Positions 7,540-61,965 of a stretch of 64,000 bases of DNA are shown here, piece after piece. Below the pieces are notes generated by a model. That model worked only from the letters and a program-made list of their open reading frames with translations, was not told where the DNA came from and ran no database searches. Position numbers and translations under genes: made by a program. The DNA comes from Martelella limonii (GTDB lineage Bacteria > Pseudomonadota > Alphaproteobacteria > Rhizobiales > Rhizobiaceae), in assembly GCF_013344475.1 (NCBI RefSeq), contig NZ_JABUOU010000003.1:372001-436000 (forward strand), in the 5' to 3' direction. How positions within the stretch are numbered: the first letter of the stretch is position 1; the number at the start of each line of letters is the position of its first letter.

Positions 7540-8475
7540 ATGACGACCACCGATTCCATTCTGCCACCGCCGGTCGGGCCCGCGCCTGCAAGAGCCAGAC
7601 GCCGCAGATCGCTCGCCCATACCAAATGGCCGGTGCTGATCCTGTTCATGCCGCCGGCGCTGGTGCTGTTCACGCTGCTCGTGATCCTGCCCATGGGCGA
7701 GGCGGCGTGGTATTCCTTCTTCCACTGGAACGGTTATGGCACGCCGGAAAAATGGGTCGATTTCCGCAACTACCAGCTCATTTTCCGCAATGCCGCCTTC
7801 AAGACCGCGCTGTTCAACAACGGGCTGATCCTGTTCGTGTCCATCGTCGTTCAGCTGCCGCTGGCGCTCTGGCTGGCATCCATGGTCACCAAGCATATCA
7901 GGGGCGCGCTGTTCTTCCGGCTGATCTTCTTCCTGCCCTATGTGCTGGCAGATGTCGCCGCCGGCATGATCTGGCGCTTCGTCTATGATGGCGATTTCGG
8001 GCTGGTTGCGGGCATCTGGCATTTCTTCGGCGCAGAGCCGCCCTTCGTTCTTGCCAATCCAGATACCGCGATGTCGGCAATCCTTGCGGTGGTCGTGTGG
8101 AAATATTTCGGCTTTCACATGATGCTGTTCATCGCCGGGCTGCAGGCGATCGACAAGTCGATCCTGGAGGCTGCCGATATTGACGGGGCGACCGGCTGGC
8201 AGAAGTTCCGTCTGGTGACGCTGCCGATGCTGGGCTCCACCGTCCGCCTTTCGGTGTTCTTCGCGGTCATCGGCTCGCTGCAGCTTTTCGACCTGATCAT
8301 GCCGCTGACCGGCGGCGGACCGTCGAACGCGACCCAGACCATGGTGACCTTCCTCTACAATTTCGGCGTCACCCGCATGCAGGTCGGTTTCGGCAGCGCG
8401 GTCGGCGTCATTCTGTTCGTCATCTGCGTCACGCTCGCCTTCAGCTACAAACGGATATTCATGAAAAATGACTGA
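7540..8475 (+). CDS. Sugar ABC transporter permease (MalF-like)
   Basis: 311 residues with about six membrane segments. The EAA loop that contacts the ATPase is at about residues 208-227 (EAADIDGATGWQKFRLVTLP). The start is set at ATG 7540, which has GGGAAAAG closely upstream; a TTG frame extension at 7498 lacks a ribosome site. It is the second gene of the transporter operon and overlaps the next permease gene by 8 bases, implying translational coupling. Confidence 0.85.
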   Translation: MTTTDSILPPPVGPAPARARRRRSLAHTKWPVLILFMPPALVLFTLLVILPMGEAAWYSFFHWNGYGTPEKWVDFRNYQLIFRNAAFKTALFNNGLILFVSIVVQLPLALWLASMVTKHIRGALFFRLIFFLPYVLADVAAGMIWRFVYDGDFGLVAGIWHFFGAEPPFVLANPDTAMSAILAVVVWKYFGFHMMLFIAGLQAIDKSILEAADIDGATGWQKFRLVTLPMLGSTVRLSVFFAVIGSLQLFDLIMPLTGGGPSNATQTMVTFLYNFGVTRMQVGFGSAVGVILFVICVTLAFSYKRIFMKND

Positions 8476-9352
8476 TATCTCCGAAAGCGCGCCGATCGAT
8501 GCGGCAAAAACGGGCGGCGAGGGACGCAAGCTCAAGGCCGGCACCCAGACCTATCTCTATGTCTCGCTGCTGATCGTGGCGGGCATCGTCATCGTGCCGC
8601 TGCTGACAACGGCGCTCGGCGGCTTCAAGACCCTGCCGGACCTGCGCGGCAACCCGTTCGGGCTGCCCACCGAATGGCAATGGTCGAACTACACCGATAT
8701 CCTGTTTTCACAGCGCTATTGGCTGCAGATGGGCAATTCGCTGCTGATCGCGGTGATGACGGTGTTTCTGACCGTGGTGATCGCCGCGGCGGCCGCCTTC
8801 TGCTTTGCCCATATCCGGTTCTTCGGCTCGGACTATCTCCTGAACTATTTCCTGATCGGGCTGATGTTTCCGGCAGCAACGGCAATCCTGCCGCTTTACA
8901 TCCGGATCCGCGATCTTGGCCTGCTCGACACCTATTGGGGCGTCATCCTGCCGCAGGTGGCCTTCGGGCTTGGCATGAGCATCCTGCTGTTCCGCAATTA
9001 TTTCCGCAACCTGCCGCATGAATTGTTCGACGCCGCCTTTGTCGATGGCTGCGGCTATATCGGTTTCTTCTGGCATGTGACCATGCCGCTGTCGCGGCCG
9101 ATCATCGCCACGGTCGGCATCATCTCCTTCGTGCAGAGCTGGAACAGCTACATCATCCCGCTGATCATGCTGAACACCGAGGACCGCTATCCCTGGCCGC
9201 TCGGCATCATGGTCTACAAGGGCGAATTCGCGACCGAATGGCAGCTGGTGCTGGCCTTCATCACGCTCACCATCCTGCCGACGATCATCGCCTTCTTCCT
9301 CGCCCAGAAACACATCATTGCCGGCCTCACCGCCGGCGCCGTCAAGTCGTGA
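8468..9352 (+). CDS. Sugar ABC transporter permease (MalG-like)
   Basis: 294 residues; six predicted membrane segments and an EAA loop (FVDGCGYIGFFWHVTMPLSR, about residues 192-211). The alanine-rich start of the loop is replaced by FDAAFVDG, which is common in CUT1 inner-membrane proteins. Its hydrophilic N-terminal stretch of about 25 residues is cytoplasmic. Start overlaps the previous gene's stop; the ATPase gene follows after 19 bases. Confidence 0.85.
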   Translation: MTDISESAPIDAAKTGGEGRKLKAGTQTYLYVSLLIVAGIVIVPLLTTALGGFKTLPDLRGNPFGLPTEWQWSNYTDILFSQRYWLQMGNSLLIAVMTVFLTVVIAAAAAFCFAHIRFFGSDYLLNYFLIGLMFPAATAILPLYIRIRDLGLLDTYWGVILPQVAFGLGMSILLFRNYFRNLPHELFDAAFVDGCGYIGFFWHVTMPLSRPIIATVGIISFVQSWNSYIIPLIMLNTEDRYPWPLGIMVYKGEFATEWQLVLAFITLTILPTIIAFFLAQKHIIAGLTAGAVKS

Positions 9353-9371
9353 AAACGTGGAGCTTTAAGAC

Positions 9372-10448
9372 ATGGCATCCGTCGAACTCAACAATGTCAG
9401 AAAGGCCTACGGCGCGCTCGAAGTCATTCACGGCGTTTCTCTGGCGATCGAAGATGGAGAATTCGTGGCTCTTGTCGGCCCTTCCGGCTGCGGCAAGTCC
9501 ACGCTGTTGCGCATGATCGCGGGGCTGGAGGAAATCACCGGCGGTGATATCTCGATCGGCGGCGAGATCGTCAACGATCTTACCCCGCGCGAACGCAATA
9601 TCGCGATGGTGTTCCAGTCCTATGCGCTCTATCCGCATATGACGGTCGCCGAAAACATGGGCTTCAACCTGCGCCTTGCCAAGCGGCCGAAGGAGGAGAT
9701 CGAAAAGCGCGTCGGCGAGGCCGCGCGCATGCTGGACCTGACCGAGCTTCTCGACCGCAAACCCTCGCAGCTTTCCGGCGGCCAGCGCCAGCGCGTGGCC
9801 ATGGGCCGCGCCGTGGTGCGCAACCCGGCCGTCTTCCTGTTCGACGAGCCGCTTTCCAATCTCGACGCGAAACTCAGGGTTCAGATGCGCTCGGAAATCA
9901 AGACGCTGCATCAGCGTGTCAAGACCACCTCGGTTTACGTCACCCACGACCAGATCGAGGCGATGACGCTGGCAGATCGGGTGGTGGTGCTGAACAAGGG
10001 GCATATCGAGCAGGAAGGGACACCGATCGAGCTTTACAAGAAGCCCGCCAACCTGTTTGTCGCCGCCTTCATTGGCTCGCCGGCCATGAACCTGCTGCCG
10101 GCCACGGTCGAGAGCGTCGATGGCGCACCCTCGGTGCGCTTTTCGGATGGCAAGACGCTTTCGATCTCGAAAGGCCATGCTGGCATGAAGCCCGGACAGA
10201 AGGTGACGGTCGGCCTCAGACCGGAGCATCTGAACCCGGATATCGGCGATGGCGCGGTGATCGAGGGCACGGCGCTTTTGGTCGAGCCGACGGGCGCGCA
10301 GAGCCATGTGGTCTTCGAACTTGGCGGCCAGCATGTGACGGCGATCGTGGACGGTGAACGGGACGTTCACCATGGGCAGCCCTTCGAAGCCAGGATCGAT
10401 CCGGAACGGGTGCATATCTTCGACAGCGAGACCGGCGCGGCGCTTTAA
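9372..10448 (+). CDS. Sugar ABC transporter ATP-binding protein (MalK/UgpC type)
   Basis: 358 residues. Walker [10 protein letters not shown] near residue 37, signature LSGGQRQR near 134, Walker B VFLFDEP near 153 and the switch histidine in YVTHDQ near 190. The C-terminal 120 residues form the MalK regulatory OB-fold domain (GLRPEHL). With the binding protein and two permeases it makes a complete importer in one operon. MalK-type subunits can be shared between transporters, so it may also power others. Confidence 0.9.
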   Translation: MASVELNNVRKAYGALEVIHGVSLAIEDGEFVALVGPSGCGKSTLLRMIAGLEEITGGDISIGGEIVNDLTPRERNIAMVFQSYALYPHMTVAENMGFNLRLAKRPKEEIEKRVGEAARMLDLTELLDRKPSQLSGGQRQRVAMGRAVVRNPAVFLFDEPLSNLDAKLRVQMRSEIKTLHQRVKTTSVYVTHDQIEAMTLADRVVVLNKGHIEQEGTPIELYKKPANLFVAAFIGSPAMNLLPATVESVDGAPSVRFSDGKTLSISKGHAGMKPGQKVTVGLRPEHLNPDIGDGAVIEGTALLVEPTGAQSHVVFELGGQHVTAIVDGERDVHHGQPFEARIDPERVHIFDSETGAAL

Positions 10449-10727
10449 CCCGAGTGCGGGTTTCACGGGAACGCCAGACCGCTCGATCTTCCTGTTTCGA
10501 CGCATTTTCGCGTGGGTCAGGCGTTGCAAGCTGACTGCGAAATGCTCTGGGCCGGCGAAAACCGGCGGCACGGCCAAAACGGGGGAAACGATGCCGGCGG
10601 TGGTCCATGCCGGCGAGAGGAAGCATATGGCGATCGCTCAGGATCGTCTGGCTTCCAGCGCGCGCCTGTCATCGGTTACCTCCACCGGTGGCAGGCCGCG
10701 CGCCTTGCTGAAGAATGAGGGCAGCAA

Positions 10728-11423
10728 TCAGAACCGGCGGACGAAACCGATCGACAGCTTGTCCATGTTGGGACTGACCTTGTCGTCGCTGGCAGGCAGG
10801 ATGCTGAAGCGCTTGGAATCGTACTGCACCCGGCGATATTCCAGGCGAAGTCCGTTGGTGTTGCTCCAGAGATATTCGACGCCCGCGCCGCCGGTCCAAC
10901 CCGACATGTAATCGGTCTCAGAAATGCCCAGCGTGGCATTCTTCACATGGGTATTGGTGAAGGCATAGCCGCCGATTGCATAGATCAGCGTGCGGTCCAG
11001 GAGGAAGCCGGTGCGGCCGCCGACATAGCCGTCGAAATCGGCAAAGGCCTTGTAATTGTCGCCACCGTTGACGCTCGACTGGTTGCCGCTTGTGAAGTTG
11101 TAGTTGAATTCACCTGACGGACCGATCAGGAAACGATCGAAGGTGAAATCGTAGCCGCCCGAAATACCAAGCGTGATGCCGCCTGCATCCTTCAGGAACG
11201 TATTGTCGAACGACATCGTCTCGTAGCCGATGTTCGGCTTCAGATAGAAGCCGTTCCAGGCAGAGGCGGACGGATCCTGGGAGTAATTCGGGATGACGAG
11301 GTTCAGCGGTCCCTTGAGATTGCCGAGAGGCTGCAGGGATTCAGGAAGATCCTGGGCAAGCGAGGCAGACGACACAAGCGCTGTGGTCGCAAGGGCAAAC
11401 CAGAAAGTCTTAGCTGCGATCAT
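10728..11423 (-). CDS. Outer membrane beta-barrel protein (Omp25/Omp31-like porin family)
   Basis: 231 residues with a signal peptide ending about residue 23 (SASLA/QDL). The mature part has WNGFYLKPNIGY, alternating polar/hydrophobic strands and the terminal aromatic residue (VRRF) needed for barrel insertion, as in the eight-stranded rhizobial/Brucella Omp25-Omp31 group. I chose ATG 11423, which gives a proper signal peptide and has AGGAAA upstream; a longer frame starts at 11468. It stands alone: 279 bases without a gene lie between it and the sugar ABC operon. Its role is probably structural or in surface interaction. Confidence 0.8.
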   Translation of the reverse strand: MIAAKTFWFALATTALVSSASLAQDLPESLQPLGNLKGPLNLVIPNYSQDPSASAWNGFYLKPNIGYETMSFDNTFLKDAGGITLGISGGYDFTFDRFLIGPSGEFNYNFTSGNQSSVNGGDNYKAFADFDGYVGGRTGFLLDRTLIYAIGGYAFTNTHVKNATLGISETDYMSGWTGGAGVEYLWSNTNGLRLEYRRVQYDSKRFSILPASDDKVSPNMDKLSIGFVRRF

Positions 11424-11562
11424 GACGTATTTCCTGAAACCTTTGACTGGACCCGCTGCGCATCGCAAGAGCGGCCTATATCAGTTTGTTACACATATAC
11501 TACCTATGCTGCAAGTAGGCCCTTACCCATTAGCCGTCTGTTTTCAAAGCGCTTTCCAAAGC

Positions 11563-11598
11563 AAAACCCGGCGTGCCATTTCTGACACACCGGGTTTT
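11563..11598 (-). terminator. Intrinsic terminator of the PNPOx-like gene
   Basis: A 13-bp stem (AAAACCCGGCGTG / CACACCGGGTTTT, one G-U pair) with a ten-base loop, about 80 bases past the stop of the minus-strand gene at 11681. The A-run becomes the U-tract in the leftward transcript. Confidence 0.7.
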
Positions 11599-11680
11599 GC
11601 CTCTTGAACAGCGTCATAGTCCGCCGGATGGCTCTCCAACGCCTGAAGAGAGAGGCCAGACGGCAGCATCGGCTTGCTCG

Positions 11681-12139
11681 TCAGAAACGCACTTCGAAGT
11701 GGTCACCCATGTCGGGCTTTTCGTCCGTCAGCTTGGACTTGGCGATCTGGATCGCGAAACCAAGCGCGTTCTTCGTCGCCCACACCTCGGCAAAGTCCGG
11801 ATCGAACTTGATCAGCCGGATATCGGGATCGTCGATGCCGTCGAACCAGCTGGAGGCAACCGGGTTCCAGAGTTCTTCGAGCTTGGCCCGATCCTGCACC
11901 AGGGAAGAGGCGCCTTCGACCCGGGCATGCATGTCGCCATTGCCGGTCACAATCAGCGAGCTTTCCGTTTCGCCCTTCTCCAGCGCCTTCACCAGATCGG
12001 TGCCCTGGGCGGTGATGAACCAGATCGCCTGATCGTCCTCGACTGGGTAAGGTGACATCGGCACGTGGCGGGCGGACCCGATCCCCAGCATGGCGGCCCG
12101 AACATCATCCATTTCTTTCCAGAATTCGGTCTTTGACAT
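11681..12139 (-). CDS. Pyridoxamine 5'-phosphate oxidase-family protein (general stress protein 26 type)
   Basis: 152 residues, all one split-barrel flavin-binding domain. The N-terminal MSKTEFWKEMDDVRAAMLGIG and the central IWFITAQGTDLVKALEKG match the small general-stress (GS26/YzzA-like) branch, which binds FMN or FAD but lacks the pyridoxamine-specific C-terminus. Its reaction is unknown. A GGAGAACAC ribosome site lies before ATG 12139. It is divergent from recR and has its own terminator. Confidence 0.75.
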   Translation of the reverse strand: MSKTEFWKEMDDVRAAMLGIGSARHVPMSPYPVEDDQAIWFITAQGTDLVKALEKGETESSLIVTGNGDMHARVEGASSLVQDRAKLEELWNPVASSWFDGIDDPDIRLIKFDPDFAEVWATKNALGFAIQIAKSKLTDEKPDMGDHFEVRF

Positions 12140-12274
12140 TGTGTTCTCCTTCGAGAGAGAAACGCATCGCCTCTGAAAAGGTTGCGTCGCACCAGGGGCT
12201 GCTGCGGCACTCCGCGATAACGGCTCTTGTCAAAAACGGATTTCGTTTTCCGGGCCGATGCGCTAGGGGAGGCT

Positions 12275-12880
12275 ATGGCAAAGCGAGTCACCGGCCCCGA
12301 AATCGAAAAACTGATCCAGCTTCTGGCGAAAGTGCCGGGGCTTGGACCGCGTTCGGCGCGCCGGGCGGCGCTTCACCTGATCAAGAAGCGCGACCAGTTG
12401 ATGGGCCCGCTTTCCGGGGCCATGCAGGACGCCTATGACAAGGTGAAGATCTGCTCCACCTGCGGCAATGTGGATACAGTCGATCCGTGCACGATCTGCA
12501 CCGATCCCAGCCGCGACCAGGGTCTGGTGATCGTGGTGGAGGATGTCGGCGATCTGTGGGCGCTGGAACGCGCTGCCGCGCTCAACGCCGCCTATCATGT
12601 GCTCGGCGGCACGCTGTCGCCGCTTGATGGCATCGGTCCGGATGACCTGACCATCTCCGCCCTTGTCGACCGGGTGAAGACCGGCGAGGTGCGCGAACTG
12701 ATCATCGCCGTCAACGCCACCGTCGAGGGGCAGGCAACCGCCCATTATATCACGGACCAACTCGACGGGCTCGATATCAAGGTCACCCGCCTCGCCCACG
12801 GCGTACCGGTCGGCGGCGAGCTCGACTATCTCGACGAGGGCACGCTGGTGGCAGCGCTCAGAGCGCGAACCAGCCTGTAG
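12275..12880 (+). CDS. recR: Recombination mediator RecR
   Basis: 201 residues, the normal length. The helix-hairpin-helix [19 protein letters not shown] is at residues 14-32, a four-cysteine zinc finger (CSTCG...CTIC) near 60-75, and the Toprim domain ([14 protein letters not shown]) after it; the C-terminal [16 protein letters not shown] is diagnostic. RecR with RecF/RecO loads RecA on gapped DNA. The start is ATG 12275 with a strong AGGGGAGG site; a frame opens further upstream at 12227. The usual dnaX-ybaB partners are not adjacent. Confidence 0.95.
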
Positions 12881-12960
12881 CGCAGCCAACCGCCACAGAT
12901 TCAGCTTGTGCATCCGTGTCCTGCTGCTGTAATCTCGCCTGATGGTTGCAGGAGGGCGCA

Positions 12961-13248
12961 ATGATCGTCGAATATCTCCGCTATACGGTGCCTGAAGCGC
13001 AGCAGGCCGCATTCATCCTTGACTATCAGGCGGCGAAAGAGCCGCTGATGCGCTCGCCCCATGCGCGCGCCTTCGACATGGCGCAGTGCGAGGAAGACCC
13101 CGCGCAATTCATCATCCGGATCGAATGGACATCTGCCGAGGATCACCTGCGTTCCTTCAGGGGAAGCGCGGAGTTCCGCGCCTTCTTCGCCCATGTCCGC
13201 CCCTATGTCGGCATGATCCAGGAAATGCGTCACTACCGGCCCTGCTGA
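12961..13248 (+). CDS. ABM-fold (antibiotic biosynthesis monooxygenase-like) small protein
   Basis: 95 residues with the pattern of the ABM ferredoxin-like dimer fold: IVEYLRYTVP at the start, RIEWTSAEDHLRSF in the middle and FFAHVRPYVGMIQEMRHY at the end. Members include heme-degrading and quinone monooxygenases, but most are uncharacterised. AGGAGG lies 6 bases before ATG 12961. It follows recR with an 80-base gap on the same strand; a functional link is not evident. Confidence 0.65.
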   Translation: MIVEYLRYTVPEAQQAAFILDYQAAKEPLMRSPHARAFDMAQCEEDPAQFIIRIEWTSAEDHLRSFRGSAEFRAFFAHVRPYVGMIQEMRHYRPC

Positions 13249-13380
13249 CCCGCACTTTGGGCAAGGGTTGCGATCCCGGCGCTGAGGGCGGTGATCTCCG
13301 GGAGCTGCGCGCTGGTGCAGTGTCATCCATTGCGCCACCTCCCCCGGATCATCCGCCCGTCACCGGGACACAATCAACGC

Positions 13381-13412
13381 TTGACAGTCTCCACATATCC
13401 ATTATTCTGGAT
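13381..13412 (+). promoter_or_regulatory. arsR promoter with overlapping operator
   Basis: TTGACA at 13381-13386 and TATTCT at 13403-13408 are 16 bases apart. The -10 hexamer lies inside an inverted repeat ATCCA-N6-TGGAT (13397-13412), and the arsR ATG is at 13415. A repressor bound here would block RNA polymerase; the transcript would be leaderless or nearly so. Confidence 0.55.
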
Positions 13413-39443: not shown

Positions 39444-40385
39444 TTATTGCGGCGAAGGCGGAAGGTGGCGGCGCGCCTGGAGCGTTGCGATCATCGCCGC
39501 CAGTTCCTGCAACAGATAATCGACGAACAGGCTGGTTGCCGCATCGAGCGGCGCGCGGGCGCGGGCGAAGAGCTTCATCGGCTGATGGCGCACATGCGGA
39601 TCGGCGACCGGCCGGAACACCAGTTCCCCCTTGCTGCAATCATCATAGACATCGAGCGGATTGAGGAAGGTGAGGCCCGTGCCGCGCTTGACCAGCTGTT
39701 TCAGCATTTCCGAGGCGTTCGATTCCACGACCGGCTCGATCGGCAGCGGCAGCGGCGAAAGCATCAGGTTGATGACATTGCGCAGGCTGGTTCCCGACTG
39801 CGCCAGAACCAATGGCTCCTGCACGACATCGGCCACGTTGACCCGTTCTTCACCGGCAAGCGCATGGCCCGGCGGCAGCACGGCGCCGATCGGCACGTCG
39901 AAGGAAGCGACGGTGCGGATGCCGGGAGTGGGCGGAATGTTGAAGCCGAGCCCGAGATCGACATCGCCGGTGACGACCGAGGCGATGGTGGTATCGCCGA
40001 TATCGGAGCGCAGATGAATGCGGATGCGCGGATTTTCCGCCACGAAGCGGGCTATGATCTCCGGCAGGGGACCCGCGGCAAGCCCGACGGTTGTCACCAG
40101 CGTGACCTTGCCCGCCTGCGGCATCTTCAACGCACGGATACGCGCCTCAAGACGTTCATAGCTTTTCAGCACCTCGCGGATATGCTCGACGCACATCTCT
40201 CCCGCCGCCGTCAGCCTCAGCCCGCGCGGCAGCCGTTCGAACAACGGCGCGCCGAACTCTTCCTCAAGGGCAAGGATCTGCCGGTTGACCGCCGAGGAGG
40301 CGACGTTCAACCTCTGGGCCGCCTTGCGGATCGATCCGCAACGCGCGATTTCATCGATATATTGCAGTTTGCGGGAGTGAAGCAT
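39444..40385 (-). CDS. LysR-family regulator
   Basis: 313 residues. N-terminal winged helix (RKLQYIDEIARCGSIRKAAQRLNVASSAVNRQILALE, 5-41) and a periplasmic-binding-like effector domain (TLVTTVGLAAGPLPE onward). It diverges from the NMT1-type transporter operon, as LysR regulators do from their targets, with 177 bases between starts. ATG 40385 gives the family N-terminus; a GTG nine codons earlier is less likely. Effector unknown; probably the transported heterocycle or a product. Confidence 0.85.
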   Translation of the reverse strand: MLHSRKLQYIDEIARCGSIRKAAQRLNVASSAVNRQILALEEEFGAPLFERLPRGLRLTAAGEMCVEHIREVLKSYERLEARIRALKMPQAGKVTLVTTVGLAAGPLPEIIARFVAENPRIRIHLRSDIGDTTIASVVTGDVDLGLGFNIPPTPGIRTVASFDVPIGAVLPPGHALAGEERVNVADVVQEPLVLAQSGTSLRNVINLMLSPLPLPIEPVVESNASEMLKQLVKRGTGLTFLNPLDVYDDCSKGELVFRPVADPHVRHQPMKLFARARAPLDAATSLFVDYLLQELAAMIATLQARRHLPPSPQ

Positions 40386-40562
40386 GGCGGTGGGCGTGCC
40401 TCGCGTGACCAAATTTTGCGCAGTGCGATTACAATTACATCAATCCCGCAGGCTGTGCAAAAAAAGCATCAATGCGCACGAAAATTGATACTTCTCAAAC
40501 AGCACTTATACCGCTCAAATGCCAGCCATAAAGCTTCAGCACAAACGCGAAGGGGAACGAAC

Positions 40563-41573
40563 ATGTCAATTCAATCGAGGCTCGGCGGCCTGGCCGCGCT
40601 CACCGGCCTGTCGCTTGCAGCAGCCGCGCCGGCGTTCGCGCTGGACGAGGTTTCCTACGGCACCAACTGGCTGGCGCAGGCCGAGCATGGCGGCTTCTAT
40701 CAGGCCGTTGCCGACGGCACCTATGAGAAATACGGTCTCGACGTCACCATCGTTCAGGGCGGTCCGCAGGCGGCGAACCGCGCGCTTCTGATTGCCGGCA
40801 AGGTCGATTTCTACATGGGCTCGCCCCAGGGTGAGTTCGACGCCGTAGTCGAGGGCATTCCGCTGATCGATGTCGCCGCGATCTTCCAGAAGGACCCCCA
40901 GATCCTGATGGCGCATCCCGATCAGGGCATCGAGGAATTCGGCGATCTCGCCGAACTGCCGACGATCTTCATGGGCAAGGACGGCTTTCTGTCCTATTTC
41001 CAGTGGATGAAGGCCAATTTCGAGGGCTTCAGCGACGAACAGTACAAGCCCTACACCTTCAACCCCGCCCCGTTCATCGCCGATCCGAAATCGGCCCAGC
41101 AGGGCTATCTGACGTCGGAGCCCTATTCGGTCGAAAAGGAAGCCGGCTGGACGCCGAAGGTATTCCTGCTCGCCGACAGCGGCTATTCGCCCTATTCGAC
41201 CATGATTACCGCCCAGCAGAAGATGGTCGACGAGAACCCGGATCTGGTCCAGCGCTTCGTCTATGCCTCGATCGAGGGCTGGTACAACTATCTCTACGGC
41301 GACAACACTGCCGCCAACGATCTGATCAAGAAAGACAATCCGGAAATGACGGATGAGCAGATCGCCTATTCGATCGAGAAGATGAAGGAATATGGCATCG
41401 TCGTTTCCGGCGAGGCCGAGGAAGGCGGCATCGGCTGCATGACCGATGAACACTTCAAGACCTTCTTTGACGATATGGTCGACATCGAACTCTACAAGCC
41501 CGACCTCGACTACACCAAGGCCTATACCACCCAGTTCGTGTGCAAGGGCGTTGGCAAGGAATTGATGAAATAG
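40563..41573 (+). CDS. NMT1/THI5-like ABC transporter binding protein
   Basis: 336 residues, signal peptide to about residue 27 (AFA/LDE). TNWLAQAEHGGFYQAVADGTYEKYGLDVTI and GPQAANRALLIAGKVDFYMG are typical of NMT1/THI5-like binding proteins, which bind pyrimidine-like or aromatic small molecules. ATG 40563 is preceded by GAAGGGGAACG. Here the downstream CodA-like amidohydrolase makes a nitrogen heterocycle the likeliest ligand (inference). A strong hairpin follows the stop. Confidence 0.8.
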   Translation: MSIQSRLGGLAALTGLSLAAAAPAFALDEVSYGTNWLAQAEHGGFYQAVADGTYEKYGLDVTIVQGGPQAANRALLIAGKVDFYMGSPQGEFDAVVEGIPLIDVAAIFQKDPQILMAHPDQGIEEFGDLAELPTIFMGKDGFLSYFQWMKANFEGFSDEQYKPYTFNPAPFIADPKSAQQGYLTSEPYSVEKEAGWTPKVFLLADSGYSPYSTMITAQQKMVDENPDLVQRFVYASIEGWYNYLYGDNTAANDLIKKDNPEMTDEQIAYSIEKMKEYGIVVSGEAEEGGIGCMTDEHFKTFFDDMVDIELYKPDLDYTKAYTTQFVCKGVGKELMK

Positions 41574-41592
41574 GCCCTTTACTCCGCCCTTT

Positions 41593-41624
41593 CCGCCCCG
41601 CGCCATGCGCGGGGCGGTGCTTTT
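41593..41624 (+). other. Stable hairpin after the NMT1 binding-protein gene
   Basis: CCGCCCCGCGC - CAT - GCGCGGGGCGG, an 11-bp GC stem, then TGCTTTT, 20 bases past the stop and 19 bases before the ATPase gene. It can attenuate or protect the upstream message, so that the binding protein is made in excess. Confidence 0.6.
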
Positions 41625-41645
41625 GGCTCATCTCAGGAAAACCGC

Positions 41646-42452
41646 ATGGCGCCTGCCCAGGCACTCTCTCAAAAGCCGCTGGTAAAGCTGGAACACGTCA
41701 CCAAGATCTTTTCCAACGGCACGATCGCGCTCAAGGATATGAGCCTGACGGTGTGTCAGGGGCAGTTCGTGAGCCTGCTCGGGCCTTCGGGTTGCGGCAA
41801 GTCGACGGCGCTCAGGATCATGGCATCGCTCGGCGACGTTACCCAAGGCTCGATCGACTGGCCGACCTCGCGCATTTCCGCCAAGGGCAAGCCGGAGGGC
41901 GATATCAGCTTCGTGTTTCAGGAACCGACGCTGATGCCCTGGGCGACCGTGTTCGACAATGTCTTTCTGCCTCTCAAGCTGCGCGGCAAATCGAAAGCAG
42001 GCGTGCGCGACGAAATCATGGCGGCACTTTCCACCGTCGGGCTGCAGGATTTTCTGAATGCGTATCCGCGCGAACTCTCCGGCGGCATGAAGATGCGGGT
42101 ATCGATTGCGCGCGCGCTGGTGACCAAGCCCAAGCTTCTGCTGATGGACGAGCCCTTTGCGGCGCTTGACGAAATCACCCGCCAGAAGCTCAACGACGAT
42201 GTGCTGCGGCTCTGGCACGAAACCGGCATCACGGTGATCTTCGTGACCCATTCGGTGTTCGAATCCGCCTATCTCTCGAACCGCATCGTGGTGATGCGCG
42301 CCCGCCCCGGCCAGGTGTTCGACGATTTTCCGCTCGATACCAGCCAGGAGCGCGACGAAACCTATCGCACTTCGGAAGAATATCGGCTGGCCTGCGAGAA
42401 AGTCTCGCGCTCGCTGCAGGGCGCCATTCAGGCAGCGGGAGGCGACCACTGA
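41646..42452 (+). CDS. ABC transporter ATP-binding protein (SsuB/TauB/ThiZ type)
   Basis: 268 residues. Walker [10 protein letters not shown] near 40, Q-loop VFQEPTLMPWATV, signature LSGGMKMR near 143, Walker B LLLMDEPF near 162 and VTHSVFE. The MPWATV Q-loop and VFDNVFLPL are typical of the nitrate/sulfonate/taurine/thiamine-precursor branch. The TGATG overlap (42449-42453) couples it to the permease gene. Confidence 0.88.
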   Translation: MAPAQALSQKPLVKLEHVTKIFSNGTIALKDMSLTVCQGQFVSLLGPSGCGKSTALRIMASLGDVTQGSIDWPTSRISAKGKPEGDISFVFQEPTLMPWATVFDNVFLPLKLRGKSKAGVRDEIMAALSTVGLQDFLNAYPRELSGGMKMRVSIARALVTKPKLLLMDEPFAALDEITRQKLNDDVLRLWHETGITVIFVTHSVFESAYLSNRIVVMRARPGQVFDDFPLDTSQERDETYRTSEEYRLACEKVSRSLQGAIQAAGGDH

Positions 42453-43279
42453 TGAACGATGAAACCTATCAGCGTCCGGGCTTCTTCGCCCGCAATGGCG
42501 AGACCATTCTGAAGATCGCGATCCCGATTGCCGTCCTGGTGCTGCTGGTCGCGATCTGGCAGGCGATCGTGGTGATCTACCAGACGCCGCATTACATTCT
42601 CCCCGGCCCGGCGCTGGTAGCGGAAGCCTTTTTCGAGGACTGGGGCACGCTTGCACCGGCGCTCTGGGTCACCACCAAGATCACCTTCATCTCGCTCGCG
42701 CTCGCCCTTGTCGGTGGCGTCGGCCTTGCCGTGATCATGGTGCAGTCGCGCTGGATCGAGACCGCGCTCTACCCGATCACCGTGATCCTGCAGGTCACGC
42801 CCATCGTCGCGATCGCGCCGCTGATCCTGATCTACACGCCGACGACGCAGGTGGCGCTTCTGATCTGCGCCTTTCTGGTGGCGTTCTTCCCGATTCTCTC
42901 CAACATGGCGCAGGGGCTGAAGAGCGTCGACCATAATCTGCTCAACCTGTTCGAGCTTTACGGCGCCTCGCGCTGGCAGACGCTGATCCATCTGAAACTG
43001 CCCGCATCGCTGCCCTATTTCATGACCGGTCTTCGCATCGGCGGCGGGCTGGCGCTGATTGCAGCCGTCGTCGCGGAGTTCGCTGCGGGCTCTGCCGGGG
43101 CGGGCTCGGGCCTTGCCTTCCGGCTCCTGGAATCGCAGTACCGGCTCAACATTCCGAGGCTGTTTGCGGCGCTGTTCATGCTCGCCTGCCTCGGCGTCGC
43201 GATCTTCGCGCTCACCTCCTTCATTTCCTGGCTGTTCCTGCACCGCTGGCATGAAAGCAGCCTGAAGAGGGAAAACTGA
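42452..43279 (+). CDS. ABC transporter permease (SsuC/ThiX type)
   Basis: 275 residues, six membrane segments, with the EAA-like loop LLNLFELYGASRWQTLIHLKLP (about 168-189). The long N-terminal helix (LKIAIPIAVLVLLVAIWQAIVVIY) is typical. Together with the preceding two genes it makes a complete importer. Its stop overlaps the ATG of the amidohydrolase by one base, so import and processing are co-translated. Confidence 0.85.
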   Translation: MNDETYQRPGFFARNGETILKIAIPIAVLVLLVAIWQAIVVIYQTPHYILPGPALVAEAFFEDWGTLAPALWVTTKITFISLALALVGGVGLAVIMVQSRWIETALYPITVILQVTPIVAIAPLILIYTPTTQVALLICAFLVAFFPILSNMAQGLKSVDHNLLNLFELYGASRWQTLIHLKLPASLPYFMTGLRIGGGLALIAAVVAEFAAGSAGAGSGLAFRLLESQYRLNIPRLFAALFMLACLGVAIFALTSFISWLFLHRWHESSLKREN

Positions 43280-44589
43280 TGACCGGCTTTGTGAACCTTC
43301 CTGACGCTCCATCCTTCTTGCTTCTCAACGCGACCGTCCCCGCGATCTGCCTGAAGGATGCCACGGGCTTTGAAGCGCGCGAAGGCTTGATTGCCGCCGA
43401 TATCACCATCGAAAACGGACGCATCGGCGCGATCACAGCGCCCGGAACCGCGCCGCCCGCCCTGCCTGCCATCGATCTTCTTGGCGGCATGGCATGGCCG
43501 ACCTTTACCGACATGCACACCCATATCGACAAGGGCCATATCTGGGACCGCCGCCCGAACCCCGATGGCACCTTCATGGGCGCGCTCGAAAATGTCGGCG
43601 CCGACCGAGAGGCAAACTGGTCGGCGGACGATGTCACTGCCCGCATGGAATTCTCGCTGAAATGCGCCTACGCCCACGGCACCGGCCTGCTGCGCACCCA
43701 TATCGACAGCCTGCCGCCGCAACACGAGATTTCCTTCGAGGTGTTTTCCGATCTGCGGGAACGCTGGGCGGACCGGATCGAACTCCAGGCGGTCGCGCTG
43801 TTTTCGATCGACATGATCCTCGAGCCGTTCTTCGATGATCTGGTTGCCCTGTTGAAACGCCGGGGCGGCCTGATCGGCGGCGTCACCCAGATGCTGCCGG
43901 ACCTTGATGCCCGACTTGACCTTATGTTCCAGGCAGCAAGCGACGCCGGCCTCGACATCGATCTTCATGTTGACGAAACCGAGGCGCGCGAGGTGCTGAC
44001 GCTGAAGGCGATCGCGGAAGCCAAGATCAGAAACGGTTTCGAAGGCGCGGTCACCGTCGGCCATTGCTGCTCGCTGGCGCGGCAGGACGAGGAGACGGCA
44101 AGGCGGACCATCGACCGTGTTGCCGAAGCCGAGATCGCGGTCGTCTCTCTGCCGATGTGCAACATGTATCTGCAGGACCGCCACCAAGGCCGCACCCCGC
44201 GCTGGCGCGGCGTCACGCTGTTCAAGGAGCTTGCGGCCGCAGGCGTCAAGACCGCCGCCGCCTCCGACAATACCCGCGACCCTTTCTATGCCTACGGCGA
44301 CCTCGACCCCGTGGAGGTGATCCGCGAGGCGGTGCGCATTCTCCAGCTCGACCATCCTCTGGATGACACGGCCCGCATCATCACCCGCACACCGGCCGAG
44401 ATCCTCGGCCGCCCGGAGCGCGGGCTGATCGCCGAAGGCGGCCCCGCCGATCTGGTTCTGTTCAGCGCACGGCGCTGGAGCGAATTCCTTTCCCGTCCGC
44501 AGGCTGACCGCATCGTGATGCGGAATGGCAAGGGCATCGACCGCAGCCTGCCGGATTATCGCGAACTTGACCCGCTGATGGATAAGTGA
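43279..44589 (+). CDS. CodA-like amidohydrolase (cytosine deaminase family)
   Basis: 436 residues. Metal ligands HTH at 80-82 (FTDMHTHIDKGH), HVDET near 230, GHCCSLA near 261 and the catalytic SDNTRDPFYAYGD near 330. These match cytosine deaminase and its isocytosine/creatinine/s-triazine relatives. It hydrolyses a C-N bond of a small cyclic amine in the cytoplasm. Substrate cannot be told from motifs. It is translationally coupled to the permease, so the imported ligand is probably its substrate. Confidence 0.8.
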   Translation: MTGFVNLPDAPSFLLLNATVPAICLKDATGFEAREGLIAADITIENGRIGAITAPGTAPPALPAIDLLGGMAWPTFTDMHTHIDKGHIWDRRPNPDGTFMGALENVGADREANWSADDVTARMEFSLKCAYAHGTGLLRTHIDSLPPQHEISFEVFSDLRERWADRIELQAVALFSIDMILEPFFDDLVALLKRRGGLIGGVTQMLPDLDARLDLMFQAASDAGLDIDLHVDETEAREVLTLKAIAEAKIRNGFEGAVTVGHCCSLARQDEETARRTIDRVAEAEIAVVSLPMCNMYLQDRHQGRTPRWRGVTLFKELAAAGVKTAAASDNTRDPFYAYGDLDPVEVIREAVRILQLDHPLDDTARIITRTPAEILGRPERGLIAEGGPADLVLFSARRWSEFLSRPQADRIVMRNGKGIDRSLPDYRELDPLMDK

Positions 44590-44591
44590 AC

Positions 44592-46001
44592 ATGCCGGAC
44601 TATCAAAAGATCAAGGCCGAGCTCGAAGGCATCGCCATCGAGGACAATCCCAATCTCGTCTCCCGCAAGAGCCGCGATTTCTACTGGTACTCACCCATCC
44701 TCAAGGCACAGCTTGAAAACGTGACCGGCGATCTGATCGTCTCGCCCGCAAGCGAGGAAGAAGTGATCCAGGTGCTGAAGGTTGCCTTCCGCCATGACGT
44801 GCCGGTCACCGCGCGCGGCGGCGGCACCGGCAATTACGGCCAGTGCATGCCGCTCTCCGGCGGTATCGTGCTCGATATGACCAAGATGAACCGGATCAAG
44901 GAAATTCACCCCGGCCGCGTCATCACCGAACCGGGCATCATCTGCGCCCAGCTCGACAAGGAGCTGAAGGAGCAGTCCGGCCAGGAGCTTCGCTTCCACC
45001 CCTCCACCACAGGCCAGGCCACCCTTGGCGGCTTCATCGCCGGCGGTTCCGGCGGCGTCGGCTCGGTCCACTGGGGCGGGCTGCGCGATCTCGGCAATGT
45101 GCTGAGACTGCGGATCGTGACGCTCGAGGAAGAGCCGCGGGTGATGGAATTGACGGCGCGCGATCTTCTGAAGGTCTCCCACGCCTACGGCACCAACGGC
45201 ATCATCACCGAAGTCGAAATGCCGTTGGCGCCCGCCTATGACTGGGTCGATGTCATCGTCGGCCATGAAAGCTTCATGGATGCGGTTCGGTTTTCCGACC
45301 GGCTGGCGAAATCATCCGGCATTCTCGTCAAGGAAATCGCGCCGATCGCAGCCCCCGTGCCTTATGACTTTTTCACCCGCCACAAGCCCTGGCTGAAAGA
45401 GGGCGAGGCCGTCACGGTGGTCATGGTCGCACCCCATGCGCTCGCCCCGTTCGAGGCACTGGTGAACCTGATGAAGGGCGAGATCCGTTTCCGCGCCGAC
45501 GAGGTTGACAATCTGCGCGGCATTCCGCGCGCCTATGAGCTTGGCTGGAACCACACCACGCTGCGCGCGCTGAAGATGGAGCCTGACAGCTTCACCTATC
45601 TCCAGGTCCAGTACCCCGGCCCCGACCATGTCGAAAAGGTCCGCGAGATGACCGAACTCTTCGGCGACGAGGTCATCGGCCATTTGGAATTCCTGCGCTT
45701 TGACGGCGCGGTGCAGTGCTCTGGCCTGCCGCTGGTGCGCTACACCACGCCGGAACGGCTGGAGGAGATCATCACAATCCATGAGGCCCATGGCTGCCCG
45801 ATCTTCAATCCGCACCGCTACACGCTGGAAGAAGGCGGCATGAAGCAGACCGACGAGCTCCAGCTTGCCTTCAAGAAGGAAACCGATCCCAAGGGGCTGA
45901 TGAACCCCGGCAAGATGATTGCCTGGGAAAACCCCGATTTCGATTTCAAGGCCGGCAAGAACTTCCTGTTCAAGGGGCTCGCCGAGACCGGGGCGGAGTG
46001 A
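44592..46001 (+). CDS. FAD-linked oxidase (PCMH/GlcD-like)
   Basis: 469 residues. The PCMH FAD-binding motif is VTARGGGTGNYGQ (72-84), with GFIAGGSGGVGS as the second FAD loop, and a C-terminal cap domain ending in NPGKMI, typical of the glycolate/D-lactate oxidase and alkylglycerone synthase families. It oxidises a hydroxyl or amine-type substrate by FAD. Start at ATG 44592, two bases after the amidohydrolase stop; GTG 44586 is an alternative. Function probably follows deamination. Confidence 0.75.
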   Translation: MPDYQKIKAELEGIAIEDNPNLVSRKSRDFYWYSPILKAQLENVTGDLIVSPASEEEVIQVLKVAFRHDVPVTARGGGTGNYGQCMPLSGGIVLDMTKMNRIKEIHPGRVITEPGIICAQLDKELKEQSGQELRFHPSTTGQATLGGFIAGGSGGVGSVHWGGLRDLGNVLRLRIVTLEEEPRVMELTARDLLKVSHAYGTNGIITEVEMPLAPAYDWVDVIVGHESFMDAVRFSDRLAKSSGILVKEIAPIAAPVPYDFFTRHKPWLKEGEAVTVVMVAPHALAPFEALVNLMKGEIRFRADEVDNLRGIPRAYELGWNHTTLRALKMEPDSFTYLQVQYPGPDHVEKVREMTELFGDEVIGHLEFLRFDGAVQCSGLPLVRYTTPERLEEIITIHEAHGCPIFNPHRYTLEEGGMKQTDELQLAFKKETDPKGLMNPGKMIAWENPDFDFKAGKNFLFKGLAETGAE

Positions 46002-46002
46002 G

Positions 46003-46584
46003 ATGCGCGTCCTCGTTCTCTTCGCCCATCCGGTCGAAACCAGTTTCGGCGCGGCGCTTCATCGTCAGGTGGTCGAAAGCCTGACGAGCGCCGGCCACGA
46101 GGTCGATGACTGCGATCTCTATGCGGAAAATTTCCAGCCCGTGCTGACGCGGGAGGAACGCATCCGGTACCACGACTATCCGGACAATACCGGTCCTGTC
46201 GCATCCCACGTCGAACGCCTGAAACGGGCGGAGGCGCTTGTGATCGTCTCGCCGGTCTGGAACTTCGGCTATCCTGCGATCCTGAAAGGCTATTTCGACC
46301 GCGTCTGGCTGCCGGGCGTTTCCTTCGCGCTGGAAGACGGCAAGCTCACCCCGACGCTGCGCCACATCACCAAGGCCGCCGCCGTCTTCACCTATGGCGC
46401 GACACCGATGCGCGCCTTTCTTGCGGGAAACCCGCCGAAGAAGATGATCAAGCGCGTTCTGCGCGCCCAGATCAAGATCGGCGCGCCGGTGGATTTCATG
46501 GCCCATTACGCCATGGACGTCAGCACCGACGAAACCCGCGCCCGGTTTATGGAAAAGGTGAAGGCGAAGATGGCGGCTTTCTAG
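46003..46584 (+). CDS. Flavodoxin-fold NAD(P)H dehydrogenase (quinone)
   Basis: 193 residues. VLVLFAHPVETSFGAALH and SPVWNFGYPAILKGYFDRVWLPGVSF are the KefF/MdaB/NQO1-type signatures; it binds FMN/FAD and reduces quinones with NAD(P)H in two-electron steps. It starts 1 base after the FAD oxidase stop and is the last gene of the operon. It may reduce or recycle a product of the FAD oxidase, but a detoxification role is also possible. Confidence 0.8.
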   Translation: MRVLVLFAHPVETSFGAALHRQVVESLTSAGHEVDDCDLYAENFQPVLTREERIRYHDYPDNTGPVASHVERLKRAEALVIVSPVWNFGYPAILKGYFDRVWLPGVSFALEDGKLTPTLRHITKAAAVFTYGATPMRAFLAGNPPKKMIKRVLRAQIKIGAPVDFMAHYAMDVSTDETRARFMEKVKAKMAAF

Positions 46585-46777: not shown

Positions 46778-48487
46778 ATGAACATGCATGACCTGACCGC
46801 CGCAGACGAGACCCGCCTTCGCAAATTGCGGGGCAATGTTCCGGTCAATGCAGTGCTTCATGTGTGGCTCAAGGCCGTGCATCCCCATGCGCCCGCTGAA
46901 CTCCGGCTTGCGCTGAACGATCGGGTGTTCGGCAATGTCTATGTGCAGAATTCCGAGGAATACGAATTCCGGATGTTCTTCGTGCCGCATGGCGGCGAGC
47001 TTGAATGCGCCTATGACCCGGAGACCACGACGATTTCGGTCGCCTACTGGTTTACCGATGCCAAGGTCCTGGAAGAGGGCATCACGGTGCTGCGGACCCA
47101 CGCGGCCAATGCGCCGGCGCCGGCGCCCGGCTCCTACCATTTCCGCCCGCCCTTCGGCTGGATGAACGATCCCAACGGTTTCGGGCGTTTCAACGGCTCG
47201 GCGCATCTGTTCTACCAGCATTATTCGCACGGCCTGAAATGGAACACCATGCATTGGGGCCATGCGGTCTCGGAAGATTTCCTGCACTGGCGGCACCTGC
47301 CGATCTTCCTGTTCCCCTCGGAGGAACTGACCGCGAAGCCCGACAAGCGCGGCGGCGCGTTTTCGGGCTCGGCCATTCCGCTCGAAAATTCGGCCGGCGT
47401 GCGCGTGTTCTTTACCGAAAGCGTGGTCGAGCGCGATCCCGAGCGCGAAATCCAGATGGTTGCCACCTCGCAAGCACTGATCTTTGCGGGCGCGGCCAAG
47501 CCCCTTATCGACAAGCGCCCCGATCTCGAGGGACTGACGCTCGATTTCCGCGACCCTTATGTCTTCCGCGGACCGGACGGTTACTGGAAGATGCTGCTCG
47601 GCAGCCGGAAGGGCGAGGAAGGCGTGGTACTGCTCTACCAGACCGCCGATGTGACGGCGGCCAGCGGCTGGGAATTCGTGGATGTGCTCCACGGCGAAAG
47701 CCGCTTCAACACGCAGGTGATCGAGTGCCCCTGCCTGCTGCCGCTCGACGGCCCGGCGGGCGATCCTTCCACGCATTGGGTGCTGATCTGCGGGCTGATG
47801 CATAGCCATGATGAGGAGACCGGCCGCAAGAACCTGACCACGGCGACGGTCGGCAAGTTCGACGGCACAACCTTCACGCCGCATTTCGAGCAGGAACTCG
47901 ATTTCGTGACCGACAATTACGCCTTTCAGGCCTTCCTCGATCACGGCACGCCGGTCGGCATCGGCTGGCTTGCAAACTGGGCGGATGCGGCCCCCGAAAT
48001 CGATTTTCCGACCGCAATGACACTGCCGCGCAACCTGGTCTACGACCCCGCCGACAACACACTGCTGACCCCGCCGATCGAAGGCGTGGAAAGCCTGCGC
48101 GACCATCTGATCGACGACACGATGCTGCAGCGCGGCGAGCTTGTGAACCTGGACAGCGGCCAGGCCGAGATCGTCATCGATCTCGCCGGTCCGACCCTGG
48201 AGCTCGACCTCTACCACAACAATATCGAGATCGTGATCACGCTTGACGAGGAAGGCCTCAGCCTCGTCTACCGCGACGATATCGAAAAGCCGACGCCGCG
48301 CTACATCGCGCGCGGCGCAACGCCGAGCCACATCCGGATATTCCTGGACATCGGCTCCGTCGAAGTCTTTGCCGACAATGGCCGCTGGACCGGAACCAAG
48401 CGCGTTGCCGGCTTCGACCCGGTCCATTCGCTGCGGATCCGCGAAGGCGATATCCGCTCCGCAAAGGTGTGGGCGCTGTCGCTGTGA
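46778..48487 (+). CDS. Glycoside hydrolase family 32 (sucrose/fructan hydrolase)
   Basis: 569 residues. WMNDPNG (near 128) carries the catalytic nucleophile Asp, FRDPYVF near 255 is the transition-state stabiliser and ECPCLL near 306 holds the acid/base Glu; these three are the complete GH32 set. The C-terminal beta-sandwich is present. The first 120 residues form an extra domain not usual in invertases. There is no signal peptide, so the enzyme is cytoplasmic and would act on imported sucrose or fructans. ATG 46778 follows ACGGAG. It precedes a PF04392-type ABC operon on minus. Confidence 0.88.
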   Translation: MNMHDLTAADETRLRKLRGNVPVNAVLHVWLKAVHPHAPAELRLALNDRVFGNVYVQNSEEYEFRMFFVPHGGELECAYDPETTTISVAYWFTDAKVLEEGITVLRTHAANAPAPAPGSYHFRPPFGWMNDPNGFGRFNGSAHLFYQHYSHGLKWNTMHWGHAVSEDFLHWRHLPIFLFPSEELTAKPDKRGGAFSGSAIPLENSAGVRVFFTESVVERDPEREIQMVATSQALIFAGAAKPLIDKRPDLEGLTLDFRDPYVFRGPDGYWKMLLGSRKGEEGVVLLYQTADVTAASGWEFVDVLHGESRFNTQVIECPCLLPLDGPAGDPSTHWVLICGLMHSHDEETGRKNLTTATVGKFDGTTFTPHFEQELDFVTDNYAFQAFLDHGTPVGIGWLANWADAAPEIDFPTAMTLPRNLVYDPADNTLLTPPIEGVESLRDHLIDDTMLQRGELVNLDSGQAEIVIDLAGPTLELDLYHNNIEIVITLDEEGLSLVYRDDIEKPTPRYIARGATPSHIRIFLDIGSVEVFADNGRWTGTKRVAGFDPVHSLRIREGDIRSAKVWALSL

Positions 48488-53742: not shown

Positions 53743-54132
53743 ATGAAAAAGAGCATCAACCCACAAGGCGTGCGCAAGCCCTTCGGAAATTACAGCCATG
53801 GCCTGTACGTGCCGCCCGGCGCCGGGCTCCTGGTCACTTCCGGTCAGCTCGGCATCGGGCCCGACGAGGTGATCCCGCGTTCGGTCAAGGGCCAGGCGGA
53901 GCTCTGTTTTGCGGCCATCGGCAAGATCCTTGCCGAAGCCGATATGAGCTTTGAGGATATCATCCGCATCAATGGCTATGTGACCTCGCGCGAGGATTTC
54001 CCGGCCTATATGGAGGTCCGCGACCAGTTCATCTCGGAGCCGCTGCCGGTTTCAACGCTGCTGATCGTATCAGGCTTCACCCGCGCCGAATTCCTGGTCG
54101 AGGTCGAGGTCACCGCAGCCAAGCTCGTCTGA
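53743..54132 (+). CDS. RidA/YjgF family protein
   Basis: 129 residues. PFGNYSHGLYVPPGAGLLVTSGQLG, IRINGYVTSREDFPAYMEV and the C-terminal TRAEFLVEVEVTA with the conserved R that binds the carboxylate are RidA features. RidA deaminates reactive enamines/imines made by PLP enzymes. GGAGGCGG precedes ATG 53743. It converges with kdgK, with a 9-base gap. Confidence 0.85.
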   Translation: MKKSINPQGVRKPFGNYSHGLYVPPGAGLLVTSGQLGIGPDEVIPRSVKGQAELCFAAIGKILAEADMSFEDIIRINGYVTSREDFPAYMEVRDQFISEPLPVSTLLIVSGFTRAEFLVEVEVTAAKLV

Positions 54133-61763: not shown

Positions 61764-61866
61764 CGTTTACCCCACATTGGTGAGACAACGCCCGGAACAT
61801 GGCGCTGGCGTTCGCCGCCCCATAGCCCCTTGACCCCTGCCGTATCCCACGGCATAGATGAGCGCA

Positions 61867-61948
61867 TCCGAGGGGTGTGTCCACGACACTGAGATGGCGA
61901 AAGCCGAACCCTTGAACCTGATCCGGGTGATACCGGCGTAGGAACGGA
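61867..61948 (+). ncRNA. TPP riboswitch (THI element)
   Basis: Core motifs are present in order: P1 5' side TCCG, GAGGGGTG, then CTGAGA (the pyrimidine-sensing loop), AACCCTTGAACCTGATC and CGGGTGATACCGGCGTAGGAACGGA; TCCG at 61867 pairs with CGGA at 61945. These are the conserved TPP aptamer features. It precedes the ThiXY-type genes, so transport of a thiamine precursor should fall when TPP is high. Control probably acts on translation, since no terminator hairpin follows. Confidence 0.92.
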
Positions 61949-61965
61949 GTTTGGTCTTGAGCGAC

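Follow-up and report, generated by a model that had tools for sequence, protein, structure and literature searches.

Within the window, by which we mean the whole 64,000-nucleotide stretch of Martelella limonii DNA analyzed here, a gene for a LysR-type regulator of 313 amino acids (39444-40385, minus strand, ATG start; PF00126 and PF03466) diverges from six plus-strand genes, as the first-pass annotation had described. An alternative TTG start would extend the regulator gene to 40412. The six genes encode an NMT1/THI5-type substrate-binding protein (SBP; 40563-41573; PF09084 at 84.9 bits against a cut-off of 20.5), an ABC transporter ATPase (41646-42452; PF00005), an ABC transporter permease (42452-43279; PF00528), a CodA-like amidohydrolase proposed here to be a pterin deaminase (43279-44589; PF07969), a VAO-fold FAD protein related to the protein of PDB entry 6V42 according to phmmer, Foldseek, and a phylogenetic tree (44592-46001, with a possible GTG start at 44586), and a flavodoxin-fold NAD(P)H reductase that we propose as an electron donor (46003-46584; PF02525 at 106.8 bits). 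Each of the profiles LysR/HTH_1, NMT1, ABC_tran, BPD_transp_1, Amidohydro_3, FAD_binding_4, and Flavodoxin_2 exceeds its cut-off, and the families named initially thus agree with Pfam. The junctions of 1 to 19 bases given for these genes have to be corrected: from the ATPase onward they measure -1, -1, +2 (or -4), and +1 bases, none of them 19, and the gap between SBP and ATPase is 72 bases. Two further features belong to this description, namely, a conserved 43-bp motif with the inverted repeat GATGCC...GGCATC (40453-40495, plus strand), which is a likely target of the LysR regulator, and a gene for a RidA-family protein 7 kb downstream of the operon (53743-54132, plus strand), which is a probable partner in the pathway.

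Conservation of the gene set and of the upstream motif

CodA-like matches (E ≤ 1e-60) are found in 88 of the 249 genomes of the order, the genome of the window included. When the neighborhoods of the 29 best matches from the 87 other genomes were inspected with 1.5-kb flanks, the FAD protein adjoined the CodA-like gene in all 29 and the permease did so in 28; because the best matches were taken first, this sample is biased toward close relatives. The gene order exceeds chance. A collection of named genomes contains at least 579 stretches coding for relatives. We took the best 80 of these, added three chosen plasmid loci, and clustered the open reading frames of the resulting 83 loci to score which genes are present. 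Among the best 80 of at least 579 plus three, the CodA-like gene is present in 83 of 83 loci, and SBP, ATPase, permease, FAD protein, and reductase are each present in 82. Creatininase-family genes occur in 78 of the loci, 76 of them oriented as usual, and RidA genes in 74. A GH32 gene downstream of the operon (46778-48487) was considered as a further member and discarded, since within the same best 80 plus three it occurs only in the Martelella locus L039.

Because the 83 loci are close relatives, loci were also picked by the FAD protein alone, which has matches (E ≤ 1e-60) in 32 of the 398 genomes of the phylum, again including our own. The resulting diverse set comprises 20 of the 31 other genomes; of the 11 omitted, 10 belong to the family of the window and one to its class. 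Here, the count is 18 of 20 loci for each of CodA-like protein, SBP, ATPase, and permease, 17 for RidA and likewise for a reductase of the flavodoxin-fold or VanB type, and 16 for the creatininase. In 16 loci the CodA-like protein is accompanied by all three components of the transporter, and in 14 by both creatininase and RidA, whereas a LysR match is present in only 2. This indicates that the enzymes co-occur widely and the LysR regulator less so. The supposition that amidohydrolase and FAD oxidase are conserved together was thus borne out in the neighborhoods and in both locus sets; the initial gene list holds for its seven genes but overlooked the two usual partners, the creatininase-family gene and RidA.

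In the operons of Klebsiella and Pantoea, a PDR/VanB-type reductase is annotated and no flavodoxin-fold reductase is; both types occur in locus L185, and two flavodoxin-fold genes are present in several loci. A substitution of this kind fits electron supply better than the recycling or detoxification of a quinone-like product, a role proposed earlier that is weakened by it. One module with a PDR/VanB-type reductase lies on plasmid p2B30155 of Klebsiella pneumoniae, where it is annotated by family names only.

Of the 83 loci (the best 80 of at least 579 plus three), 77 have a LysR match that is divergent from the SBP gene. An alignment of 15 gaps between LysR and SBP, taken from the window and 14 of these loci, revealed a conserved block containing the GATGCC...GGCATC repeat. 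With a model built without the window, the window's own motif scores 42.6 bits, compared with -1.2 for the best of five shuffled windows. The model of all 15 rows, which is partly circular for SBP gaps, was applied with a threshold of 4.4 bits, the maximum over 498 random stretches of the same loci. By this measure, and still within the best 80 of at least 579 plus three, 77 of 82 loci carry the motif upstream of the SBP gene and 71 of 78 carry it upstream of the creatininase gene, with the other seven below threshold. No creatininase region was contained in the model, and the motif before these genes suggests that the creatininase probably belongs to the same regulon as the SBP operon. LysR is predicted to bind the 43-bp motif. 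RidA was also considered as a member of the motif regulon and rejected, as none of 75 RidA genes from this set of loci reaches the threshold.

In the genome of the window, the creatininase relative is located on another contig, C2 (8477-9277 of the stretch C2:129000-147000), and is 82% identical to that of Martelella mediterranea. It stands behind genes read as purA and an EamA transporter; in M. mediterranea (L039), the operon adjoins the same purA/EamA neighbors, and creatininase and operon stand together. The motif before the C2 gene is weak, its 1.0 bits falling short of the 4.4 bits of the best control stretch. The RidA protein of the window, whose gene has no motif before it, is 70% identical to the RidA adjoining the operon of Rhizobium johnstonii, a protein that itself reaches 29.6 bits where the RutC cut-off demands 169.1. 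The Pfam family of RidA is Endoribonuclease L-PSP, and in Pantoea and Klebsiella its gene directly follows that of the amidohydrolase.

The FAD protein and its paralogous sets

The best solved relative of the FAD protein is 6V42/6V43 (phmmer, 681 bits, E 6.7e-204), with 62 to 63% identity over a nearly full-length match (residues 5 to 465 of 469). The fold is shared as well: a structure model (mean pLDDT 72) has 6V42 as its top PDB match in Foldseek (E 2e-54). This entry is titled “Crystal structure of the flavin oxygenase with cofactor bound involved in folate catabolism”, so that the substrate, called unknown in the first reading, can now be approached through a relative assigned to folate catabolism, an assignment that stands at the level of the depositors' PDB title. 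A homologue of this sort, already placed in a pathway, is what the first reading itself had named as evidence against its proposal. A literature search by the codes 6V42 and 6V43 found no paper. Among 385 genomes of the class of the window, the protein closest to 6V42 is 67% identical to it.

A tree built from 53 FAD proteins places 6V42 among the window-type rows, in a starred group of three (99/94) whose other members are the proteins of loci L169 and L172, which come from the family of the window. Both loci contain creatininase, RidA, SBP, ATPase, permease, CodA-like protein, FAD protein, and reductase; no LysR match was found in either. The smallest starred set uniting the window protein with 6V42 comprises 35 of the 53 rows and also takes in the versions on contig C38 of our genome (see below) and in Nitratireductor, whereas the narrower forks joining the two (91 to 93%, SH-aLRT 36 to 88) are not starred. 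Because these narrow forks are unstarred, we call the FAD protein of the window a probable orthologue of 6V42 only.

Two paralogous sets are present elsewhere in this genome. The second version (C38:40000-59999) consists of a gene read as IclR followed by creatininase, CodA-like protein, FAD protein, reductase, ATPase, permease, and a putative SBP, and it sits between two FolD-type genes. There are three FolD-type matches in the genome, and one of the two flanking the C38 set is below the catalytic-domain cut-off. FolD was rejected as a general neighbor of the module, being found in only one of 103 other loci (L174), and the neighboring genes therefore give little for folate. The third, diverged version (C39:182000-201500, 8228-13386) holds LysR, SBP, three FAD proteins, creatininase, isochorismatase, amidase, GGT, ATPase, and permease genes; its FAD proteins are in tandem, with the creatininase gene between two of them, its transporter is of the NMT1 type, and its LysR-SBP gap carries the motif at 18.1 bits. 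Versions in other organisms have neighbors of their own: that of Nitratireductor adjoins a hydantoinase/oxoprolinase, and a gene for a TauD-family dioxygenase directly follows that of the FAD protein on the megaplasmid of Ruegeria sp. TM1040 (L195, 10483-11367) and in locus L187 (10261-11154).

As the C38 and C39 sets show, the module has diverged, and other heterocycles may be among its substrates. It is thus conceivable that the operon of the window acts on a different bicyclic or pyrimidine heterocycle (another pteridine, a product of purine breakdown, or a pyrimidine from plants) and that the 6V42 label describes just one branch of the family. The three FAD proteins of C39 (36%) beside amidase, isochorismatase, and GGT genes speak for this alternative, as do the hydantoinase/oxoprolinase and dioxygenase neighbors. 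However, the window protein is considerably closer to 6V42 than to the C38 and Nitratireductor versions (46 to 50%; C38 alone, 46 to 48%) or to those of C39 (33 to 36%), and its grouping with 6V42 in the tree, albeit through unstarred narrow forks, points in the same direction. We therefore regard another heterocycle as rather unlikely, if still a reading to be taken seriously.

The amidohydrolase and the transporter

The CodA-like protein retains the metal ligands and the catalytic Glu/His of E. coli CodA, and H80, H82, H230, E233, H262, and D330 are invariant in 16 aligned relatives. It differs at two positions that bind the substrate in CodA: Gln156 is replaced by Ser in the window and by Pro, Ser, Ala, or Lys in 12 other relatives, and Asp314 is replaced by Asn in all 13, so that neither of these two cytosine-specific residues is kept. 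These observations bear on the possibility that the enzyme is a cytosine deaminase and the operon a salvage route supplying uracil-type compounds. The automatic label points that way, since NCBIfam model NF005759 (“cytosine deaminase”) matches at 657.5 bits against a cut-off of 403 and the best phmmer matches in the PDB are cytosine deaminases. Yet identity to E. coli CodA is only 25%, Gln and Asp never occur at the two positions, and an oxygenase and a creatininase would seem to have no place in salvage, all of which makes this possibility highly improbable.

A better comparison is offered by pterin deaminases. Arad3529 of A. radiobacter K84 was reportedly assigned as such by Fan et al. in 2013. 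A later study showed that the amidohydrolase PDA of Variovorax sp. F1 deaminates folic and pteroic acid and is 37% identical to Arad3529; it also mentions that, in V. paradoxus, the predicted genes have endoribonuclease genes downstream of them (You et al. 2022, PMC9513972). These deaminases are probably related to amidohydrolases of the present kind, and the endoribonuclease gene of V. paradoxus is of the RidA type; the 37% between Arad3529 and PDA resembles the 34 to 37% between window-type CodA-like proteins and the Comamonadaceae version. On the grounds of its genomic context and its residues, the CodA-like protein is likely a pterin deaminase.

A 43.5% relative of the Pantoea amidohydrolase is encoded on plasmid pADP-1 of Pseudomonas sp. 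ADP (L192, 9941-11272), near atzD and an ABC transporter and beside an insertion sequence. It was set aside as a further example of the module, as the 21-kb stretch inspected there has no annotated FAD protein, creatininase, or RidA.

As for the transporter, the 25 NCBIfam models listed (of 189) for the ATPase, SsuB and TauB types included, all remain below their cut-offs, and the scores against SsuABC fall short for ATPase (175.9 versus 395 bits), permease (64.2 versus 347), and SBP (19.1 versus 163.5). Uptake of thiamine or its pyrimidine, which the NMT1 family and the weak similarity of the SBP to PDB entries 3ix1 and 4nmy could suggest, is hardly credible given that the window has a separate thiamine system, consisting of a TPP riboswitch (61861-61961) followed by a permease and an NMT1 SBP, that the SBP of this system is only 28% identical to that of the operon over 153 amino acids, and that no Rfam family matches upstream of the operon at gathering score. 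The operon thus shows neither the close SBP relation nor the TPP control of a ThiXYZ system, and the initial view that it is not for thiamine is upheld.

A proposed regulon for pterin catabolism

Together, we think it quite probable that these genes are best explained as a LysR-controlled regulon for the catabolism of pterin, the ring of folate. The NMT1-type ABC importer would bring in a pterin, from which the CodA-like enzyme would remove the 2-amino group, giving a lumazine. The FAD protein, judging from its relation to 6V42, would then oxygenate this lumazine, with the flavodoxin-fold reductase passing electrons from NAD(P)H to this step. From here on, the scheme follows family chemistry: the creatininase-family amidohydrolase, encoded on contig C2 in this genome, may open the oxidized ring at a cyclic amide, and RidA may hydrolyze an imine or enamine intermediate.

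Several lines of evidence argue for pterin, namely, the match of the FAD protein to 6V42 and its grouping with L169 and L172, the deamination of folic and pteroic acid by Variovorax PDA, the endoribonuclease genes of V. paradoxus, the motif before the creatininase gene in most loci of the best-80-plus-three set, and the position of the C38 version between two FolD-type genes. Counted against it are the NCBIfam label of cytosine deaminase, the diverged C38 and C39 sets, the scarcity of LysR in the diverse loci, and, in this genome, the weak motif of the C2 creatininase gene and the RidA gene without one. The outline drawn at first, an operon that imports, deaminates, and oxidizes a nitrogen heterocycle, stands in that uptake, deaminase, and FAD genes are conserved together; what no longer stands is a substrate left entirely unnamed.

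The scheme recalls the Rut pathway of pyrimidine degradation, in which ring oxidation is followed by the action of a Rid-type protein, RutC. This order would be common to both; in contrast, the present system has a FAD_binding_4 protein and a creatininase-family hydrolase rather than a RutA-type monooxygenase. The pathway is of a mostly known kind, with two enzyme steps that have described relatives and later steps that do not. Whether it amounts to a complete regulon mineralizing the pterin ring from import to RidA, with a creatininase-family hydrolase opening the ring under control of the same regulator, spread through rhizobia and beyond, with undescribed steps after the oxygenase and with unrelated reductases swapped as electron donor, seems to us evenly balanced. 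Our literature search by gene names and PDB codes, from which most subscription papers were absent, found no paper on the whole operon, and this argues only weakly for novelty.

Although cells everywhere release folate and pterins, the literature searched says little about how soil and root bacteria destroy the pterin ring. If the operon can be tied to pterin breakdown, this would correct the usual label of “cytosine deaminase”, explain a conserved and often plasmid-borne gene set of rhizobia, and narrow the search for the missing steps of ring opening to a few enzymes that can be tested.
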